A stretch of DNA of 35,260 nucleotides from a virus: positions 1 through 35,260 of the IMG/VR virus record IMGVR_UViG_3300032050_000423; one strand, 5' to 3'. Made by a program: the position numbers and the translations under genes. Shown here piece after piece: positions 6,987 to 35,260 of this stretch. Each line of letters begins with the position of its first letter. Position 1 is the first letter of the stretch. The notes below the pieces were generated by a model. The model was not told where the DNA came from, did no database searches, and was given only the letters and a program-made list of their open reading frames with translations.

Positions 6987-9900
6987 TTACGAGTAGCGGT
7001 ACATCACGCGAACGACGTCGCCTGCGACCAGCTCTTCTTCTTCACCTACGACAAGGCTTCCTGCGAAGGTGATGCGAGTTACGCCACCTACAACCGATAC
7101 TGTGTAGTCGTCACCTGCGTGAGCGACCAGACGATCAACGGTCATCAGGATGGATTTCTCGATCGCCTGATGAGAGAGGTTGATGTATCCGTTGGTGATG
7201 TTTGTCGAGCTGAGGACGAACTTCTCTTTCTCGTGTACGATCGCTTCGAGTGCGTCGATCGCGCTCTGGAGAGCGGCGTCGGCGGTCGAGCGGGTCGAAG
7301 CTTCGGCTGCAACTTCTGAATCGGTGTATGCTTTAGCATCTTTGAGTGCTTTAGCAACCGAACCAGCGACGTTGTCTGCACCTTCGAGGACGTCTAAACG
7401 GCCATCAAGAGCGTTGTCAGCAGCGATACGGGCAGATTCTTCGGCGGTGACTTCTGAATCGGTGTAAGCCTTAGCATCTTTGAGTGCCTTAGCAACCGAG
7501 CCAGCGACAGTGTCTGCGCCTTCGAGGATGTCTAAGCGGCCGTCGAGGGCGTCGATGTTGCTCTGAAGCACGCCGTCAGCAGCGATGCGGGCGGTCTCTT
7601 CTGCGGAGACTTCCTGATCGGTGTAGGCTTTGGCATCTTTGAGCGCTTTGGCTACGGAGCCAACGACGTTGTCTGCGCCTTCGAGGACATCAAGTCTTCC
7701 GTCGAGGGCGTTATCTGCAGCGATACGAGCAGATTCTTCTGCGTCGATGTTGCCTTGCAGCGTGCCGTCTGCCGCGATGCGAGCAGATTCTTCAGCAGAA
7801 ACCTCAGAGTCGGTGTATGCTTTGGCATCTTTCAATGCTTTGGCTACAGAACCAACTACTGTATCAGCGCCTTCGAGGACGTCAAGTCTTCCATCGAGTG
7901 CGTTATCGGCGGCGATGCGAGCAGATTCTTCAGCGGAGACAGCGGCGATACGTGCAGAGGTCTCTACGTCGGTGTAGTCTTTGGCGTCTTTGAGTGCCTT
8001 AGCAACGGAACCAACTACTGTATCAGCGCCTTCGAGGACGTCTAAGCGACCGTCGAGAGCGTTGTCGGCGGCGATACGTGCGGATTCTTCTGCGGAGACT
8101 GCAGCGATACGAGCAGATTCTTCTGCGTCGATGTCACCCTGAAGGGCATTGTCGGCAGCGATTCGTGCGGACTCTTCTGCGGTGACTTCCTGGTCAGTGT
8201 AAGCTTTGGCGTCTTTCAAGGCCTTAGCTACGGAACCGACTACGGTATCAGCGCCTTCGAGGACGTCTAAGCGACCATCGAGGGCATTGTCAGCCGCGAT
8301 ACGAGCAGATTCTTCGGCGTCGATGTCACCCTGAAGGGCATTGTCGGCAGCGATACGGGCGGACTGCTCGCTGGCGATGTTGTTTGCAACGGTGACTGCA
8401 AAGTTCTCGTCTTCGTTGATGGCGTCAGCGAGTTCTTTGAGTGTGTCGAGCAGAGCAGGAGCACCGTTTACTAGAGCTGAAACTTCAGAGTCAGTGTAAG
8501 CCTTAGCATCTTTCAGTGCTTTGGCTACGGAACCGACTACGGTGTCTGCACCTTCAAGGACGTCGAGGCGGCCATCAAGAGCGTTGTCGGCAGCGATACG
8601 TGCGGACTCTTCTGCAGAGACAGCTGCGATACGTGCGGATTCTTCTGCGGAAACCTCAGAGTCGGTGTAGTCTTTGGCATCTTTGAGGGCTTTGGCTACG
8701 GAACCTGCTACGGTATCGGCACCTTCAAGGATGTCTAAGCGGCCATCGAGGGCATTGTCAGCAGCGATGCGGGCGCTTTCTTCTGCGTCTACTTCCTGGT
8801 CTGTGTAAGCCTTAGCATCCTTGAGGGCCTTAGCTACGGAACCAACTACAGTATCGGCACCTTCAAGGGTGTCAAGACGACCGTCGAGGGCGTTATCGGC
8901 TGCGATACGAGCAGATTCTTCAGCAGAGACTGCAGCGATGCGGTCGCTGATCTCTTGGTCGAGGTCGCCGCGGAGGTCGAGGGTGTAGCCGTCCAAGGAG
9001 TCGATCTGACCCTGAAGGTCGGTGTCGATGGCGTCTGCGTATGCTTTGGCATCTTTCAGTGCTTTGGCGATAGAGCCAACTACCGTGTCGGCACCTTCGA
9101 TGATGTCGAGGCGGCCGTCGAGGGAGTTATCAGCTGCGATACGGGCAGATTCTTCAGCAGAGACTGCAGCGATACGGGCGGACTCTTCTGCGGAAACCTC
9201 AGAGTCGGTGTAGTCTTTGGCATCTTTCAAGGCCTTAGCTACGGAGCCGGCTACGGTATCAGCGCCTTCGAGGATGTCAAGTCTTCCGTCGAGGGCGTTG
9301 TCGGCTGCGATACGGGCTGATTCTTCGGCAGTGACTTCTTGATCGGTGTAGTCTTTGGCATCTTTCAATGCCTTAGCTACGGAACCAGCAGTACTGTCGT
9401 TGCCTTCGAGGATGTCTAGGCGTCCGTCAAGGGCGTTGTCTGCGGCGATACGAGCGCTTTGCTCGGCGTCGTCGGCTGCGACACGTGCAGATTCTTCGGC
9501 AGAGACCTCAGAGTCGGTATAAGCCTTAGCGTCTTTCAGCGCTTTGGCTACAGAACCTACTACAGTATCAGCACCTTCAAGGATGTCTAAGCGACCGTCA
9601 AGGGCGTTGTCAGCGGCGATACGGGCTGATTCTTCTGCGTCGAGGTCTAAGCCGCTTGCGTTTTGAAGGGCGGTGATGTCGCCGCTTAGTCCTGCGATCT
9701 GGTTAGCAATCGAAGTTGCGAAGCTCTCGTCGTCGCCGATAGCTGCAGCCAGCTCGTTCAGCGTGTCGAGGAGGCCTGGGGCTCCATCAACGAGGTCTGA
9801 GATCTTTTGGTCAGCGTAGGCTTTGGCATCTTTAAGCGCTTTGGCTACGGAACCAGAAGTACTGTCGTTGCCTTCGAGGACGTCTAAGCGACCATCAAGT

Positions 9901-20552: not shown

Positions 20553-22094
20553 TTAAACACAATACATAACATACTTTGCCTGACCTGCGTCATATAGCCT
20601 TGTCCATCCAAGTTCTTCTGCGTGTTGTTTCTCTGACAGCAGCCTGTCGTCCATATTTGCGCGACAACGCAGTCTATTAAACGTATTATGATTGTCTGTC
20701 CACTGCCATCCTAAGGTCACAGACATCAAATTAAAACCTACAGCCTTTAAGCTGGAACCGTCAGCGTAGCGCAGATCTACAAACGACTGAATGAATCGTG
20801 GTTTAGATAACGTTTCTATACGCTTCAGAAGACGAGACAATCCGCCCTGAATCTGAAAACCAATCTTTGTTGCGACTCTGACCAAGTCTATGCCATCCTT
20901 GTGACGACGATACGTTATAACCATCATTGGTTCTGAGTTAAGGACCAAAGCAATAGCAGTCGAGCATCTTGCTGAGCCCATAAGATGGTTGCTTTGCATA
21001 AAGGCAGCGGCATCGTCGACCGAGATGCTTTTAACTTCAAGTTTTCTAGCTCCTATCTTTTTGCTTAAACCCAATACATTGGCGACCATAGAACAGACTA
21101 TGTCAGGAGTATTCTTTATTTCGTCCTGGCGAAACTGAAGTAGACGCACGTTGTTTTCTTTATATGTATATGCCTTTTTAATGTGGTATTGTTTGTCGCG
21201 CATCGAGTGTGAATATAGTCCGTCTACATCTACATATATAGTTTTATTGTCGTGCTTCAATATGATATCTGGCCTATATCTAATACCTTTTTCCAGCATC
21301 TCTGGGACGCCAAGATTGTAAGCCTCTGCATCTAACCCGCTGTTCTTAAACATGTTTATTGACAGAAGCTCCAAAGAAGAACGATGTTTATGATAATTAT
21401 CCAACCAGTCTTGCGCAGCGTCCCATCCAAGCTCTCTAGCGACATTGCGAAGCGAAGTAGGCCTTACTCCTTTTTCTTTACAGGAATCGACGACTATCCT
21501 GCCATCTGGAAAAGATTGAATTCCCTTTTCTCTTAGAGTTTGAGATATAGAACTTGCAACCTTCATTGCTACGTCTTTGTTGAGCATAGCATTTTCTACA
21601 CCGTAGCGTTCTAAGTTTGTCATAGACATCTTTGCGAACACTTCTTTATTTTGACTTGGAGCAGAAGTTCCGTAGCGGTCAATATTGGTAGACTTGATCT
21701 TATCCTTGATATCAGGGCTGCATGCAGGAGCTGCTCCGCCGTATTTGAGCTGATTAGTGGACTTTCTTTTGTTTTTGGTCTGTTGAGACTTGGAGGCTTC
21801 GACTGCCCTTTTTAAGATCTCTGGTCTGTTAGGATCAGACTTCATAGATTGTCTTACTTTTTCAACAATATCTTCTCTGTACATTGGATTGTTTTCAGAA
21901 AAGAACTCTGATTTGTAGCAGCCACAAGACTGAGACTTACCGTGAAGAATAGTGTTGGGCGTCTTTATCAATCGCTCTGTTCCACAGTCACACCTACAGA
22001 TCCATCCAACCTGGCGACCGTCGTCTCCAAGTTTCTTTTCTACGAAAGTCCATCTATTGTATTTATCGTTTGCTTTTGCTGTAAGTCTAGACAT
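20553..22094 (-). CDS. EDxHD/Vsr-like homing endonuclease (free-standing)
   Basis: 513 residues; AGAGGTG ahead of ATG. Residues 10-60 are a Cys-rich ribbon (CRCDCGTE, SQSCGCY). Residues about 85-190 hold repeated DNA-binding-type units with RYG or KYG (TNQLKYGG, TNIDRYGTSAP, TNLERYGVENA). Residues about 240-330 form a Vsr/PD-(D/E)XK-like nuclease with RPDIIL (D276) and YVDVDGLYSH (D289, D291, H296). Residues about 355-513 are a separate C-terminal domain with MGSARCSTAIALVL, SFVDLRYADGSSLKAVGF and LGWQWTD. This last domain is closely similar to the partial gene at the right edge. It lies directly downstream of the capsid gene terminator and has its own promoter element. Likely mobile by homing; target unknown. 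Confidence 0.82.
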   Translation of the reverse strand: MSRLTAKANDKYNRWTFVEKKLGDDGRQVGWICRCDCGTERLIKTPNTILHGKSQSCGCYKSEFFSENNPMYREDIVEKVRQSMKSDPNRPEILKRAVEASKSQQTKNKRKSTNQLKYGGAAPACSPDIKDKIKSTNIDRYGTSAPSQNKEVFAKMSMTNLERYGVENAMLNKDVAMKVASSISQTLREKGIQSFPDGRIVVDSCKEKGVRPTSLRNVARELGWDAAQDWLDNYHKHRSSLELLSINMFKNSGLDAEAYNLGVPEMLEKGIRYRPDIILKHDNKTIYVDVDGLYSHSMRDKQYHIKKAYTYKENNVRLLQFRQDEIKNTPDIVCSMVANVLGLSKKIGARKLEVKSISVDDAAAFMQSNHLMGSARCSTAIALVLNSEPMMVITYRRHKDGIDLVRVATKIGFQIQGGLSRLLKRIETLSKPRFIQSFVDLRYADGSSLKAVGFNLMSVTLGWQWTDNHNTFNRLRCRANMDDRLLSEKQHAEELGWTRLYDAGQAKYVMYCV

Positions 22095-22245: not shown

Positions 22246-23700
22246 TTATTTGCCAACGTTTCTCATGACGCCTTGGAAGCGAGGAGCATACACGAAAAGC
22301 GCTCCGTACATCAAGAGCAAGAATTCCAAAGCAGTAGTGACTACCGCTAGGTTCATCTTAGCCAATGGGGCAAGTTGCTTAAACTTCATCGACTCAGCGC
22401 CGAGATCCAGCAAGAATGCTTCGCCGAGGCCTGGACGCTTACGACCAGCATCAACGATAGCCGAGATGCCTACGCGGTAGTTACCGATGAACTGAGCCGT
22501 GCTAGCAGCGGCGCCGTTAGCCGAGCGGTACAGCTTGTAGTACTTGGCGGTAGACGGAACCGAGCCGGTGATGGCGATGGTCACGCGTTGGCCAGCCGTT
22601 GGGCTGACAGCCGATGCAGTCAACACTGGAGCAGACTCACCGAAGTCGTTAACCAAGGTCAACGCGTAGCTGTAAGCACCAGCGGCGAGATCAGATCCTG
22701 AACCAGCAGCAGTACCAGCGATGCTGAGGCCTGCGATGCTTGGTGCGCTTGCGTTTACTGCGCTCGAGCGAACCTGCTGACGAGGACGGAGGAAGAGGTT
22801 CGGCTTGAGGTCGATCGCGCCCGCCGTGGTCGTAACCTTAGAAACGTCGTAACCTACGGTCTGACCGGAGAGACCTGGCTCGCTACGGAACTGAGGATAG
22901 AACTGGCGTACGAAGGTCGAGATCGCGAGCGGCTCGGCGTGGAACTGGGTCGGTGCACCGAAGTTCTCGAGTGCTTTTACTGCGAGGTCTTCTACGTCGT
23001 CCTGCGCGAAGCTTGCGCCGGCGAGGTCTTTGACGATCGAGGTCGACTCAGCGCCCCAGCCTTCAAAGTCTTTAGAGATGAACTGGCTGTCGCGGTCACC
23101 TTTCAGGATCTGCTGGAGAAGGCCGGACATCGCGATGCTGTTTACTGGAAGATCGGCGGTTGCACCGGTCTGGTCGCCGTTGGCGTCGGTGAAGTGTGCG
23201 TGGCCCCAGTAGAGTTCGCGCTCGACGTTCTTCAGAAGGTCCATCGTTCCTTCTTTTGCCTGCTGAGCAACTACGTCGCCTACGGAGGTGCGAACGAGTG
23301 TCATCTGGTGCGAGACCTTACGACGCTTGCTGAAGAAAGCGATCCGTTGGCCGTCGCGTACGTATGTTGAATCTTCTTCTTGTCCGCTGCCGCCTTCGCC
23401 GATGTACGGAGAAGCGTCGGAGCCGTAGCCTACCAAGCGGTTGTACTGCTCGAACAGGTTGTAGGCTTTGTCGATGCTGAGGGCAGGCCACAGCTTCAGG
23501 TTCTTCATGTCGAAGGTCACTACTTTGAGAGTAGATTCCAGCGATTCAGTTTGGATAACGCCACCGTAGGTGAGGTCGGTCGGACGACCAGCGTAGCCGT
23601 AGCCAGCGCTGAGGGCCTTGTTGAGGTTCTCGATCTCAGCCTGGGAGACGAGACCCTGCTCCAAGCCTTGCATAATCTGATTCATTGCGTCTTGATACAT
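22246..23700 (-). CDS. Major capsid protein (HK97-like)
   Basis: 484 residues; GGGAG nine bases ahead of ATG. Residues 1-60 look like an N-terminal delta-type region and include LNKALSAGYGYAGRPTDLTY and GGVIQTESLE. The core follows with LKLWPALSIDKAYNLFEQYN, RKVSHQMTLVRTSVGDVVAQ, ERELYWGH and a C-terminal LEFLLLMYGALFVYAPRFQG. These are hallmarks of capsid proteins of this phage group as I know them. Residues about 315-425 form an added Ig/Fn3-like domain (AGAYSYALTLVNDFGESAPV, YYKLYRSANG) likely exposed on the capsid surface. Position after protease and scaffold-like genes agrees. Residues 25-54 are shared with the prohead protease. Confidence 0.85.
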   Translation of the reverse strand: MYQDAMNQIMQGLEQGLVSQAEIENLNKALSAGYGYAGRPTDLTYGGVIQTESLESTLKVVTFDMKNLKLWPALSIDKAYNLFEQYNRLVGYGSDASPYIGEGGSGQEEDSTYVRDGQRIAFFSKRRKVSHQMTLVRTSVGDVVAQQAKEGTMDLLKNVERELYWGHAHFTDANGDQTGATADLPVNSIAMSGLLQQILKGDRDSQFISKDFEGWGAESTSIVKDLAGASFAQDDVEDLAVKALENFGAPTQFHAEPLAISTFVRQFYPQFRSEPGLSGQTVGYDVSKVTTTAGAIDLKPNLFLRPRQQVRSSAVNASAPSIAGLSIAGTAAGSGSDLAAGAYSYALTLVNDFGESAPVLTASAVSPTAGQRVTIAITGSVPSTAKYYKLYRSANGAAASTAQFIGNYRVGISAIVDAGRKRPGLGEAFLLDLGAESMKFKQLAPLAKMNLAVVTTALEFLLLMYGALFVYAPRFQGVMRNVGK

Positions 23701-32272: not shown

Positions 32273-32284
32273 ATTATACTTATC
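32273..32284 (-). promoter_or_regulatory. Candidate promoter element GATAAGTATAAT
   Basis: Overlaps the terminase stop codon and stands about 30 bases ahead of the portal start. Same GTATAAT core with GATA just upstream; no obvious -35. Confidence 0.55.
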
Positions 32285-34946
32285 AAAACGTCCAAAGAAA
32301 TCCACCGTCTACAGACTTATCGTCTTCCTCGTCATCGATCTCAGACAGCCTTCCTATTTTACCAAGCTTATCGGCATTAACCTCTGGATTAAACGGCAGG
32401 TTGTTGAGTTTCGCGTACTCTTCTGGAGTGGGCGCCTTGAAGAAATTTCCATTGTTATCAACCAGTTTTGCCATATCGACGTCCAAACCGGCAGATGAAA
32501 GCACGATCTGGTTCTTGCCGAAAAGGTTCGTCAGCGGGTATCGTAAAGCATCCAGCCAGTGATCGTGCTCGCTGTCTGGAGTGTCTGATATCTGGCCAGC
32601 GGCATCGGTTTTGTAGTGGTAGAGCTGGAACTCCCTTATCAGAGCCTGACATGTCTCCTGAGCAATGAAAAGCTTAGACTCGGCAGTGCCTGGAATCTTA
32701 AGCCACTTCTTTATGATCTGTATGCCGGTGTTGATGTTGCCCTTGTCTGTGTTTGTCGAAGTCGGAAGGCCAAGCTTCCTCATCTCTACTGCGTCACCAG
32801 GATCCGCTTGGTCAGGAAAGTAGAGTTGGATACGGTATGGCTGATGCCACTTGTTCTTGATGTGGTGCATCCACGTGGGCCTTGATATATACGTCATGCC
32901 GTCGCATCTTACGACGTATATGTTCTCTTTTGCGTCCACGAAAAATACCACGAGCGTGTGCGGGTTTGACCATCCCCAGTCGATGCCGGCGTACGCTGGA
33001 AGACCCATGTTGTGACAGTTGCCGCTCAGCGATATTACTCCGTTGCGGCGAACAAATAACCTAGACGAGGGCATCGTTACACAATAGACCATTCCATCGT
33101 AGTCTACTTCACCTATGTTTCCTTGTGTTTTATTAGAATATTCGCTCTTGTTGGTTCCGTTGTTGATGTAGTACGAACGATCTGCTGGCTTGTTGTTTGT
33201 CTTAAAGTGAAAATTAACTCTAAAACGTCTTAGGTACTCAGTCCCTGTGTTCTTGTGCGTTTTGCCTTGATTACCCTGCATTGAAAGAGAACTCTTATAT
33301 CCCAATCTAAAGCATAGCTCTTGAACATCGTTGGCAAGCTGCTCAGAGCCTGTTGAATAATAAGGCTGTTGCCTTGATCCGTCGAACATGTACGAGCCGT
33401 CCCCGAAGCATAGCCACTCCAAAAGGATCGATAGCTGCCTGCGGGAAGCTTGTTCAAGTATGTTCCTAGATATCAACTTGTTGACGGCAAACTTTAAAGG
33501 CTTTAAGTAATTATATAGTTCTTTGTTGTATACGGACCAGTTTGTCGTATAGTCAACCTGATCCCGAGCATCAGACTCTCTGTGAAGCTTGTTGGGCCAA
33601 GCTATCGATGCCATAAGCCGCTCAACCTTGTCAGAGGCGTCTCTGCTCTTAGACTGAGAAACCTCTACCTTGTTGTGCCCCCACTCGTCGTTTGCTCTTG
33701 TCGAACTCATAGAGCCTTCGCTCAGCCAAAGCCCCATGAAGGCCATAAACTGATCGCCGGTCATGAAGCTTATAGGAGATTTTATGTCCATGTTGTTTGC
33801 TGTAGAGCCGGAAAGCCAGGTAGCCGGTATGTAAAAATCGTTCAGCTCGTCAAGAGAGTCTGCTCGCTGCTTCAAAAGCTTTATCTCTTGCTTCTTTCTG
33901 AAGTTTCTACCGTGAAGGTACTCGACATCGTGGTTGGGAGTAACCAGAAGGTCGAGATGGTGCTTGCCTCCGCCTATCTCATTGTAAAGGTTTACCATCT
34001 TTCCCTTATAGTGATACGAGATGTGCTCTATCGGTTTCTGGTAGTTTAACACACCACCGTTGTCTAGGGTGGCTAGAGTGTCATACTCAGTAAGATCTTT
34101 AAAAAGCTTAAAGCCGTTGTTCGTCAAAACCTCAGTGTCGTCACTGAAGCATTTCTTGACGAATATATCGTGGTTGCACTCGCCAGGAAACTCTTTTCCG
34201 GTCAGCGACAACCACATCTGGTTCCAGGTCTTGACGTGCATGCGCTCGTCGAACTCTTTGTAGATGATCCCCTCGACCGACGGCTTTAGATTCATCAGCT
34301 GGGACATCGCCCAGTCAGGACCCTCTGACAAGACCTTCTGCGCGAGCTCGTCTATAGACTTGAGCATCGGCGATTCTGAGACTTGATTCTTGGCGTCGCC
34401 GAGGCATATAGGAGCGAGTGGGCATTTCCCGCAGCCTATGTACATCTCGTATCTCTCGTACTCTTTCTTCCTCTGCTCGCCGAGCTTCTCGAACTCTGAC
34501 GGAGATCTCACGTCGAACGACTGCTGATCGATGTAGTATTCTTGGCGCTGCGTTCCAGATCGTGAGTCTGGGCATCGCTCGGTGAACTCAAATGCGGTCC
34601 AGCGACGAACATGTCTGCCCTGCTTCTCGGCGTTCTCGATGGCTTGGTTCATGAGACCGTATCGCGACTTTCTGGTCGATATGCCCACGCGCAGCGGCTT
34701 ACGGCCGCGCTTGGAGTCGAGCATACCGGAGATTTCTTTGTAGGCTCTAAGCCCCTCGCCTGATACTGTATCAATCTCGTCCACCACGACCAGCGGCACG
34801 TGTGGTCCATTGCAGTTGTGGTTGATGGTGCCGTCAGCTGTAACAAACGAATTTGACATCGGATTGGTCGGATCGTCGCTTGAACGAACCTCCAATTTCG
34901 CTATTTGCTTTATGCCCGTGCGCTCGATTTTCGTTACCTTAGCCAT
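32283..34946 (-). CDS. Terminase large subunit, C-terminal piece of a fractured gene, with split-intein C half and a second intein
   Basis: 887 residues from ATG 34946; AGAGG is five bases ahead, while a TTG start five codons earlier is less likely. Residues 1-44 are a C-intein. Terminase resumes at C45 with Walker B (VPLVVVDEID, 50-59) and a Cys cluster (CGKCPLAPIC), but Walker A is absent and must be encoded beyond the right edge. Residues 266-643 are a second intein. The nuclease domain follows (GIDWGWSNP with D656, PDQADPGD near 711-718, DSEHDHWLDALRY at 791-803). After splicing, this piece gives 465 residues of terminase. It packages DNA with the portal encoded next. Its start overlaps the upstream endonuclease stop by 8 bases. 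Confidence 0.9.
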   Translation of the reverse strand: MAKVTKIERTGIKQIAKLEVRSSDDPTNPMSNSFVTADGTINHNCNGPHVPLVVVDEIDTVSGEGLRAYKEISGMLDSKRGRKPLRVGISTRKSRYGLMNQAIENAEKQGRHVRRWTAFEFTERCPDSRSGTQRQEYYIDQQSFDVRSPSEFEKLGEQRKKEYERYEMYIGCGKCPLAPICLGDAKNQVSESPMLKSIDELAQKVLSEGPDWAMSQLMNLKPSVEGIIYKEFDERMHVKTWNQMWLSLTGKEFPGECNHDIFVKKCFSDDTEVLTNNGFKLFKDLTEYDTLATLDNGGVLNYQKPIEHISYHYKGKMVNLYNEIGGGKHHLDLLVTPNHDVEYLHGRNFRKKQEIKLLKQRADSLDELNDFYIPATWLSGSTANNMDIKSPISFMTGDQFMAFMGLWLSEGSMSSTRANDEWGHNKVEVSQSKSRDASDKVERLMASIAWPNKLHRESDARDQVDYTTNWSVYNKELYNYLKPLKFAVNKLISRNILEQASRRQLSILLEWLCFGDGSYMFDGSRQQPYYSTGSEQLANDVQELCFRLGYKSSLSMQGNQGKTHKNTGTEYLRRFRVNFHFKTNNKPADRSYYINNGTNKSEYSNKTQGNIGEVDYDGMVYCVTMPSSRLFVRRNGVISLSGNCHNMGLPAYAGIDWGWSNPHTLVVFFVDAKENIYVVRCDGMTYISRPTWMHHIKNKWHQPYRIQLYFPDQADPGDAVEMRKLGLPTSTNTDKGNINTGIQIIKKWLKIPGTAESKLFIAQETCQALIREFQLYHYKTDAAGQISDTPDSEHDHWLDALRYPLTNLFGKNQIVLSSAGLDVDMAKLVDNNGNFFKAPTPEEYAKLNNLPFNPEVNADKLGKIGRLSEIDDEEDDKSVDGGFLWTF
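33018..34151 (-). other. Contiguous LAGLIDADG intein in the terminase
   Basis: 378 residues between NHDIFVKK and the following Cys. Block A: CFSDDTEVLTNNGFK with Cys1. Block B: LLVTPNHDVEYL with T71 and H74. Two LAGLIDADG-type helices: FMAFMGLWLSEGS (about 135-147) and LLEWLCFGDGS (about 243-253). Block F/G: YCVTMPSSRLFVRRNG then VISLSGN before Cys+1. The penultimate residue is Gly instead of the usual His, a known but less common state that can still splice. It is inserted just before the first catalytic Asp region of the nuclease domain. It looks intact for both splicing and homing. Confidence 0.92.
34815..34946 (-). other. C-terminal half of a split intein
   Basis: 44 residues starting MAKVTKIERTGIKQIAKLEV and ending SNSFVTADGTINHN, followed by Cys+1. 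The FVxADGTINHN end matches block F/G with penultimate His and terminal Asn, both needed for splicing. Length and own start codon match known split C-inteins (about 35-48 residues). Insertion is just before Walker B of the terminase. A 10-12 residue insertion (RSSDDPTNPMSNS) separates the two beta strands of block F. Confidence 0.85.
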
Positions 34947-35260
34947 CTGAACCTCTGTCAACGCTTAAGACCATCTTCGCCTGACCCGCGTCGTAGATCT
35001 TGACCAAGCCAAGCTCTTTGGCGTACTCTTTCTGTGTCAATTTTCTCTCGTCCATGTTAGCCTTGCAGAACAGACGATTGTAGGTCTTGTCGTAGTCGGT
35101 CCACTTCCATCCCAGCGTGGTGCCGACGTGCACGAAGCCCATGTCCTTGAGCGAGGCGACGTCGCCGTACCGCAGGTCGACGAACGTGTAGATCTTATCT
35201 ATATCGAACGTCTTTATAGCATACTTGAGCAGCTTGGAGTAACCGCCAACGACCACGGTG
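34939..35260 (-). CDS. EDxHD-type homing endonuclease, C-terminal part (partial)
   Basis: The frame is open to the right edge, so the N-terminus and nuclease core lie outside. The visible 106 residues align closely with the last 100 of the 513-residue endonuclease at 20553-22094: GGYSKLLK, FVDLRYGDVASLKDMGF, TLGWKWTDYDKTYNRLFCKA, NMDERKL and IYDAGQAK have clear counterparts there. A GTG at the edge is internal by that alignment, not a start. It overlaps the terminase C piece by 8 bases. In fractured genes with split inteins the endonuclease lies between the two intein halves, as here; it may serve to mobilise the whole split arrangement. Confidence 0.8.
   Translation of the reverse strand, partial: TVVVGGYSKLLKYAIKTFDIDKIYTFVDLRYGDVASLKDMGFVHVGTTLGWKWTDYDKTYNRLFCKANMDERKLTQKEYAKELGLVKIYDAGQAKMVLSVDRGSDG

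Follow-up and report, generated by a model that had tools for sequence, protein, structure and literature searches.

The gene for the terminase large subunit (TerL; gene terL) of the large phage represented by IMG/VR virus record IMGVR_UViG_3300032050_000423 is very probably a fractured gene, encoded in two halves whose products would be joined by a split intein. The stretch analysed here, called the window, is this whole 35,260-bp record, and its right end falls inside the fractured terL locus, so that the window holds the C-terminal half only. As read from the window and its relatives, the case consists of gene order, an exact empty site, conserved splicing residues, purifying selection and repeated change between the split and intact states of the gene. 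Related loci are designated L followed by a number.

The C-terminal half in the window

The following features of the locus lie in the window.

32283-34961, minus strand: open reading frame (ORF) of 892 codons with the C-intein and the C-terminal part of TerL, start ATG at 34946
34946-34815, minus strand: C-intein of 44 residues (MAKV...FVTADGTINHN), from the ATG at 34946; placed by alignment of 11 relatives, with its N partner in L054 and L003
34152-34814, minus strand: TerL extein, opening with Cys+1 and containing the Walker B motif LVVVDE; 52 relatives by its first 216 residues, uninterrupted homologues present
33018-34151, minus strand: second intein, contiguous, 378 residues, with LAGLIDADG motifs, at site FVKK/C (Pfam LAGLIDADG_3, PF14528, E 4.3e-6)
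32283-33017, minus strand: C-terminal nuclease-domain extein of TerL with the stop codon (PHROG 5653, terminase large subunit, E 1.2e-20)
34952-34956, minus strand: AGAGG, resembling a ribosome-binding site, inside the endonuclease gene and 5' of the start codon of the C half, identified by eye
34939-35260, minus strand: C-terminal 106 residues of an EDxHD-family endonuclease gene that runs off the window edge (PHROG 3339, 'homing endonuclease', E 8.5e-10; complete copy at L003:8173-9876)

In the 892-residue ORF, read on the minus strand, the terminal His-Asn of the C-intein is directly followed by Cys at 34814 and then by CNGPHVPLVVVDEID, and the Walker B stretch beyond this junction reads NGPHVPLVVVDEID. 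Inspection of the translation of 32283-34961 revealed no Walker A motif. A first-pass annotation, made from the letters of the window, had described just this arrangement, with 44 residues ending in FVTADGTINHN, a Cys and a Walker B region without Walker A, and it is borne out, as is the 8-base overlap with the upstream ORF, which ends at 34939, the ATG of the C half being at 34946. The C half has its own start codon. What that annotation omitted is the 378-residue contiguous intein, placed between Walker B and the nuclease domain; the window terL ORF carries half an intein and one whole intein. The contiguous one is missing in most relatives, L030 having a copy 91% identical to it.

The Pfam Terminase_3C match to the C-terminal extein stays under the cut-off, and PF03237 is too weak for the family, with none of eight records over the cut-off and a sub-cut-off match in three of them. 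The parts of a TerL are nevertheless accounted for: Walker A (GRGSGK/T) in the N half, Walker B (LVVVDE) in the window, and the C-terminal nuclease domain.

The N-terminal half and the architecture of the locus

Viral contigs were searched with the Walker B stretch (52 loci), with an N-intein alignment (38 loci) and with a C-intein alignment (26 loci). One 22.3-kb contig, L054, ends in exactly 127 bp identical to the window end (35134-35260), which resembles an assembly-graph word overlap, 127 being a usual assembler word length. In L054 the N-terminal part of TerL (TerL-N) is joined to a 99-residue N-intein with Cys1 and GTLDH; an HNH-like ORF comes next, and then the EDxHD ORF, most of which is present before the contig breaks off. 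The junction between TerL-N and the N-intein reads ...TLEVLPCTLRA/CLVSSATST...GTLDHKVWTQRGW...AEVKA, followed by the stop. Five further contigs, 99.7-100% identical to the right end of the window, hold both halves (L002, L003, L005, L006 and L045, the C half of L002 being truncated by the contig end), and L004 has the C side only. The order in L003 is TerL-N with the N-intein (to 7353), the HNH-like gene, the EDxHD gene (8173-9876, 567 residues) and the C-intein with the C-terminal part of TerL (from 9869). The host gene comprises two ORFs, each with a start of its own; an N-intein closes the first and a C-intein opens the second, an arrangement found in L003 and its relatives across 13 lineages.

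The N-terminal piece with Walker A and an N-intein, which had been predicted to lie upstream, was in this way located in L054 and the five spanning contigs, and the remainder of the endonuclease, expected to the right of 35260, was recovered for the most part in L054 and completely in L003. The prediction of an endonuclease between the halves held for the EDxHD gene but was incomplete, an HNH-like gene also being in the gap.

A cis intein interrupts the Walker A motif, or P-loop, of TerL-N in L054.

L054:4039-6297: P-loop cis intein, contiguous, about 423 residues, LAGLIDADG type, at site GRGSGK/C...HN/T; also in L003, L019, L021, L025, L108 and others

Because it is present in both split and uninterrupted alleles, this intein comes and goes independently of the fracture; the P-loop intein of L048 is a mini version. 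The terL lineage of the window has two cis inteins besides the split one.

The break of the window contig at this very locus could speak for a decayed or mis-assembled terL, with an intact copy elsewhere in the genome. We regard this as vanishingly improbable, as contigs spanning the locus exist and the same arrangement recurs in 32 of the 97 contigs described below. In addition, the reading frames are open, pN/pS is low, and a search with a complete TerL found every TerL region a single time in each of 17 records, which may be fragments; the uninterrupted second terL that would have contradicted the first-pass annotation was not among them.

Empty alleles at the same codon

The state of the insertion site was read in 97 contigs judged distinct, a tally that rests on matching contig names between listings and is not exhaustive, one listing covering 80 of 186 relatives. 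The site is split in 32 contigs, uninterrupted in 60 and cut off by the contig end in five; L054 was scored as split by its N half only, and visual inspection placed L136, L137 and L144, all with Val at +1, among the uninterrupted ones. The 60 uninterrupted relatives lack an insert at exactly the insertion codon of the window, their frame running ...P-x-T-(L/M)-(K/R)-A/S directly into x-NGPH, and the empty-site DNA matches the flanks of the split locus codon by codon. No contiguous intein was found at this site among the 97 contigs.

Every one of the 31 split contigs in which the +1 residue is visible has Cys there; the 60 uninterrupted alleles have Cys in 34 cases, Leu in 15, Val in 10 and Thr in one. 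The uninterrupted alleles of the clade nearest the window have Leu or Val, while more distant uninterrupted relatives have mostly Cys; this pattern may reflect either resistance to re-invasion or drift.

These counts bear on whether the TerL halves might work as two separate peptides, without ligation. There is a precedent in a nucleotide reductase split by a nuclease gene, the halves of which are functional as two peptides (PMC10448857). For TerL we consider such a solution very unlikely, given that 26 of the 60 uninterrupted alleles have Leu, Val or Thr at +1 as against Cys in every split allele that could be read, and that all 13 lineages compared retain Cys1, the terminal Asn and Cys+1, in intein halves under purifying selection.

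Three bacterial genome contigs that carry an uninterrupted TerL of this family belong to Bacteroidota assemblies (Saprospiraceae, Cytophagales and Flavobacteriaceae), and the host of the window phage is therefore likely to be a member of the Bacteroidota. The major capsid protein of the phage shares about 30% identity with its counterparts in SPO1-like Bacillus phages and in Bacteroides DAC phages.

Identity of the split intein and selection on its halves

The C-inteins of 11 relatives align at the same spot, with M1, G11, LEV18-20, SF33-34, G39, HN43-44 and the following CNGP invariant. The block B His is kept, like Cys1, the terminal Asn and Cys+1, in all the 13 lineages compared, and TLDH is present in 12 of them, L071 having SKDH instead. 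The N parts are 84-108 residues long and the C parts 40-44, the dimensions of the canonical class of split inteins (about 100 and about 40 residues; PMC13014065, PMC11923092). When a profile of the joined halves was compared with the PDB, the top two molecules were NrdJ-1 (E 6.6e-5) and gp41-1 (E 8.1e-4). Both of these inteins come from fractured genes. The NCBIfam model TIGR01445 (intein_Nterm) recognises the N-intein of L046 with 33.7 bits, above its cut-off of 24.5.

Direct dN/dS is meaningless for most pairs because of synonymous saturation, and pN/pS was used for this reason. Both intein halves are under purifying selection, the medians over 55 pairs from 11 loci being 0.23 for the N-extein, 0.30 for the N-intein, 0.38 for the C-intein and 0.14 for the C-extein.

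The middle of the gene could also be removed as RNA, by a group I or group II intron carrying the endonucleases, and phage group II introns with enzymes distantly like EDxHD/Vsr have been reported (PMC12350094). However, the coding sequence on either side of the gap reads on in frame into intein sequence with the catalytic residues kept, the C half begins with a start codon, and L003, L012, L046, L020, L073 and L099 (91,264 bases, searched without a positive control) contain no Rfam match at the gathering threshold, which makes an RNA intron extremely unlikely.

Signs of mobility of the fracture

The split and uninterrupted states require eight changes on the TerL tree, all eight being forced by well-supported branches (7-8 in bootstrap trees), with gain and loss indistinguishable. 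The tree comprises 49 of 59 loci and 30 different sequences; L004, L010, L015, L047, L049, L051, L052, L053, L054 and L100 were dropped for missing or short halves, and the branches of L002 and L048 are lengthened by a cut intein retained in the C part of the former and by the P-loop mini-intein retained in the N part of the latter. Intein and extein trees conflict, the extein data rejecting a grouping of L003 with L018 (p 2.7e-37). L003 and L007 agree to 97% in the Walker B part of their C-exteins, as against 59% in their C-inteins. Between L019 and L020, likeness peaks at the intein, with 99.2% identity in the C-intein and 97.7% in the N-intein compared with 89.2% in the C-extein and a mean of 90.9% in the N-extein, the latter value being lowered by an alignment artefact at the edge of the P-loop intein. 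The tree and the identity patterns fit homing of the cassette, without proving it.

From these data we infer trans-splicing, cis-splicing, target cleavage and homing, in the following scheme. The first gene, outside the window, would encode the N half of TerL, in which a cis intein disrupts Walker A, and would end in an N-intein; the second and third, in the gap, would encode the HNH-like and EDxHD-type endonucleases; and the fourth, in the window, would supply the C-intein, the Walker B half, a further cis intein and the nuclease domain. The N- and C-intein would then associate, fold as one Hint domain and splice ...TLRA to CNGPH..., and the two cis inteins would remove themselves, yielding one complete TerL. 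The endonucleases, for their part, may have carried the cassette into uninterrupted terL alleles by cleaving these at the insertion site.

Several observations weigh against this interpretation. The window itself has the C half only, and its link to L054 consists of the 127-bp overlap and the near-identical spanning contigs. The penultimate His of the intein is present in 11 of 13 lineages only, being absent from L071 and L073. The N-intein of L003 scores 19.4 bits with TIGR01445 and that of L054 is also under the cut-off, while the match of the L003 N-intein to Pfam Intein_splicing (PF14890) has an E value of 0.096. Synonymous sites are saturated in the pN/pS comparison. As to mobility, the conflict on the intein side is modest (L003 with L007 disfavoured at p-AU 0.021, the pair having been picked after looking) and the extein tree gives this pair no firm support (69/98). 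Identity between L019 and L020 falls, not monotonically, from 96% next to the intein to 76% at the greatest distance from it, a profile that ordinary recombination fits as well.

The endonucleases

A second enzyme of the family that borders the C half lies elsewhere in the window.

20553-22094, minus strand: free-standing EDxHD-family endonuclease of 513 residues, with the same domain order, outside the fracture (PHROG 3339, E 2.2e-49; alignment of 8 rows)

The first-pass annotation had taken the gene upstream of the C half for the C-terminal part of an endonuclease closely similar to this protein. It does belong to an endonuclease family (PHROG 3339), and the two proteins are related, but their closeness was overstated, the identity being 54% over 97 C-terminal residues and 34% over the full length of the complete, near-identical copy in L003. 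Moreover, the fragment in the window is not the nuclease, because its 106 residues lie in a C-terminal domain resembling GNAT acetyltransferases.

The catalytic part is predicted to lie upstream of this fragment, in a middle domain with a Vsr-like fold similar to that of I-Bth0305I. Over 154 residues of this domain, E55, RPD80, D92-GLY-x-H97 and Q-F-R..E128 (L003-domain numbering) are invariant in all eight aligned sequences, two of which are near-copies; we take these residues to be the letters of the named EDxHD motif. An AF2 model of residues 225-378 (pLDDT 74.4) retrieved the catalytic domain of I-Bth0305I (3r3p) first, with Z 10.2, 90 aligned residues and 2.7 Å, and gave Z 6.5 with Escherichia coli Vsr; the Foldseek E value of the same model was only 0.013, and TIGR00632 (vsr) matched the protein with E 0.11. 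No homing endonuclease was found in the PDB by sequence or profile search with the EDxHD protein, only the fold of the separate domain giving a match, and a search with the whole-protein fold returned only the GNAT-like domain. The fold of the C-terminal 170 residues is close to RimI (Z 14.7 over 134 residues) and to Mom of phage Mu (Z 13.4 over 146 residues). Phage Mu Mom is a DNA-modifying enzyme, and a nuclease joined to a possible DNA-modifying domain is a noteworthy combination. Both EDxHD-family proteins of the window (20553-22094 and 34939-35260, minus strand) end in such a GNAT-like domain near Mu Mom.

Relatives of the free-standing 513-residue enzyme are found in 372 phage records and include proteins annotated as Hef and as 'homing endonuclease EDxHD'. 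In the window its gene is situated directly downstream of the major capsid gene (22246-23700, minus strand).

The HNH-like ORF of the gap was assigned by PHROG 5351 (E 1.8e-7) and by reading of the motif, Pfam giving no significant HNH match for it. Such genes abound in the L003 (108.5 kb) and L006 (134.9 kb) records, with 8 and 9 matches to the gap enzyme, itself included. A zinc-ribbon-like stretch in the N-terminal extension of TerL in L012-L017 and L054 resembles those in the HNH-like enzyme of L003.

Variable content of the gap

The EDxHD-type gene between the halves in the lineage of the window (L003:8173-9876) is not constant among relatives. It is alone and on the same strand in L009, L019, L020 and L073; it is on the opposite strand in L025, together with an HNH-like gene, and in L031, by itself. 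The gap of L048 contains an HNH-like gene and a related protein without the EDxHD block, and those of L018 and L071 an HNH-like gene only (in L071 by motif). No EDxHD gene was found in the gaps of L007, L012, L018, L046, L071 and L099, and genes of other kinds occupy two of these.

L012 gap, 8337-9801: polymerase-beta-like ORF (PF14791, E 1.8e-8; PF14792, E 1.8e-5) and a 307-residue ORF of no known kind
L046 gap, 9101-9868: single trypsin-like ORF (PF13365, E 1.7e-6)

For the group L012-L017 the gap of L012 was read, and the other five share its length. The gap ORFs of L007 resemble those of L012 by eye, and one of them, when searched, gave no match. The records of L012 (87.5 kb), L013 (109.9 kb) and L046 (126 kb), which may be fragments, contain no EDxHD relative, and their only HNH relatives are the zinc-ribbon match at the N-terminus of TerL or, in L046, one weak match with stops.

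The plain reading of L012 and L046 would be that other genes occupy the gap, the endonuclease having either disappeared or never been acquired. It is conceivable, if somewhat doubtful, that a fracture can outlive its selfish gene and keep fracturing, the motor of L012 and L046 having been left dependent on trans-splicing with the gap as a landing place, and the intein of L099 having come to consist of three pieces. If such orphan fractures splice, an essential virion motor could be tied to trans-splicing for good even once its parasite is lost.

N-inteins also end ORFs inside the nuclease domain in other TerL families (L075, L076, L077, L079, L080, L081 and L084), at NDH(G)/C or SIDA/C. A matching C-intein ORF is present in L076 and L077, with an HNH-like gene between, and in L080, with nothing between; none is among the listed ORFs of L075, L079, L081 and L084.

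A candidate three-piece intein

In L099 the N-intein appears to be divided over two genes, with the C-intein on a third, which makes this locus a candidate for a natural three-piece intein.

L099:4098-6132: divided N-intein, with Cys1 and about 11 residues in gene 1 and profile positions 12-85 in gene 2

The TerL-N gene reads ...TLKA/CLTENSKVTIKK and then continues in frame into an HNH-like enzyme. Right after its stop comes a 140-codon ORF that lacks Cys1 and matches positions 12-85 of the N-intein profile (E 9.8e-29), and whose own stop overlaps the ATG of the C-intein gene. The N-intein content of the first two pieces is complementary; the first piece is unrecognised by the N-intein profile (2.7 bits) and is known from one contig. 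A second contig, L100, is 99.2% identical to L099 over 2608 bp and confirms genes two and three, starting downstream of Cys1. Between the two contigs, 185 codons taken from the second gene and the C-intein show no change, compared with 21 changed codons among 687 in the HNH part and C-extein. Possibly the L099 locus is in decay, the phage having another solution. If the three-piece reading is true, three genes would build one packaging motor, and a natural three-piece intein would represent a new degree of gene fragmentation.

An origin of this arrangement by tandem duplication of the N-intein and the HNH gene was considered and dropped, the remnant of the first copy not being significantly similar to the second (183 of 2000 shuffles were as good) and being missed by the N-intein profile. 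Only the tail of the second ORF resembles the start of the HNH gene of L018 (6 of 1000 shuffles), in one of three comparisons, the others giving 131 and 435 of 1000.

Comparison with known systems

In 2009 Dassa et al. reportedly described genes of environmental phages that are fractured by split inteins and accompanied by EDxHD endonucleases. The terL locus is like those genes in having two halves, a canonical split intein, an EDxHD-type gene between them, and NrdJ-1 and gp41-1 as profile relatives. It differs in its target, TerL, in the HNH-like gene also found in the gap and in the two further cis inteins of the window lineage, and its relatives differ in having the endonuclease on the other strand (L025, L031), an HNH-like gene only (L018, L071) or none (L012, L046). 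In an open-access literature search, which leaves most subscription papers outside, we noticed no canonically split TerL with an endonuclease cassette, and no fracture with an unrelated gene in the gap, natural three-piece intein or EDxHD-GNAT protein.

The fractured terL recurs across many related phages, some of them without a DNA-cutting gene in the gap, and successive stages in the life cycle of such an element can be seen in the lineages where the endonuclease has been exchanged, turned round or lost. The 32 split and 60 uninterrupted contigs at one codon amount to a natural experiment on homing, in which both the target DNA of the empty allele and the endonucleases are known. Split inteins from fractured genes are fast ligation tools of protein chemistry, and the 13 canonical Cys1/Cys+1 lineages widen the choice of candidates to a further gene context.

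As such, TerL with a split intein is not new. AceL-TerL, GOS-TerL and Cat-TerL are likewise naturally split inteins named for the phage large terminase (PMC11766414, PMC13014065), but they are atypically split, with N parts of 25, 37 and 30 residues, in contrast to the 84-108 residues of the N parts and 40-44 of the C parts described here. Inteins often target TerL, and cis inteins of mycobacteriophage TerL are found at the P-loop, between Lys and Thr (TerL1-a), and in Walker B (TerL1-e) (PMC5050341). The TerL1-a site is the same as in L054; the mycobacteriophage inteins are contiguous and within the ATPase domain, whereas the Walker B intein here is split and placed just before the motif, and another precedes the nuclease domain. 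TerL of a crAss-like phage also has more than one intein in the gene, but the two are cis inteins, a split one not being reported in the excerpt available (PMC7886860). The halves of the split PolB intein of phage MIJ3 likewise flank an endonuclease gene in a large phage, the gene in that case being DNA polymerase B and the endonuclease an HNH enzyme only (PMC6892783).

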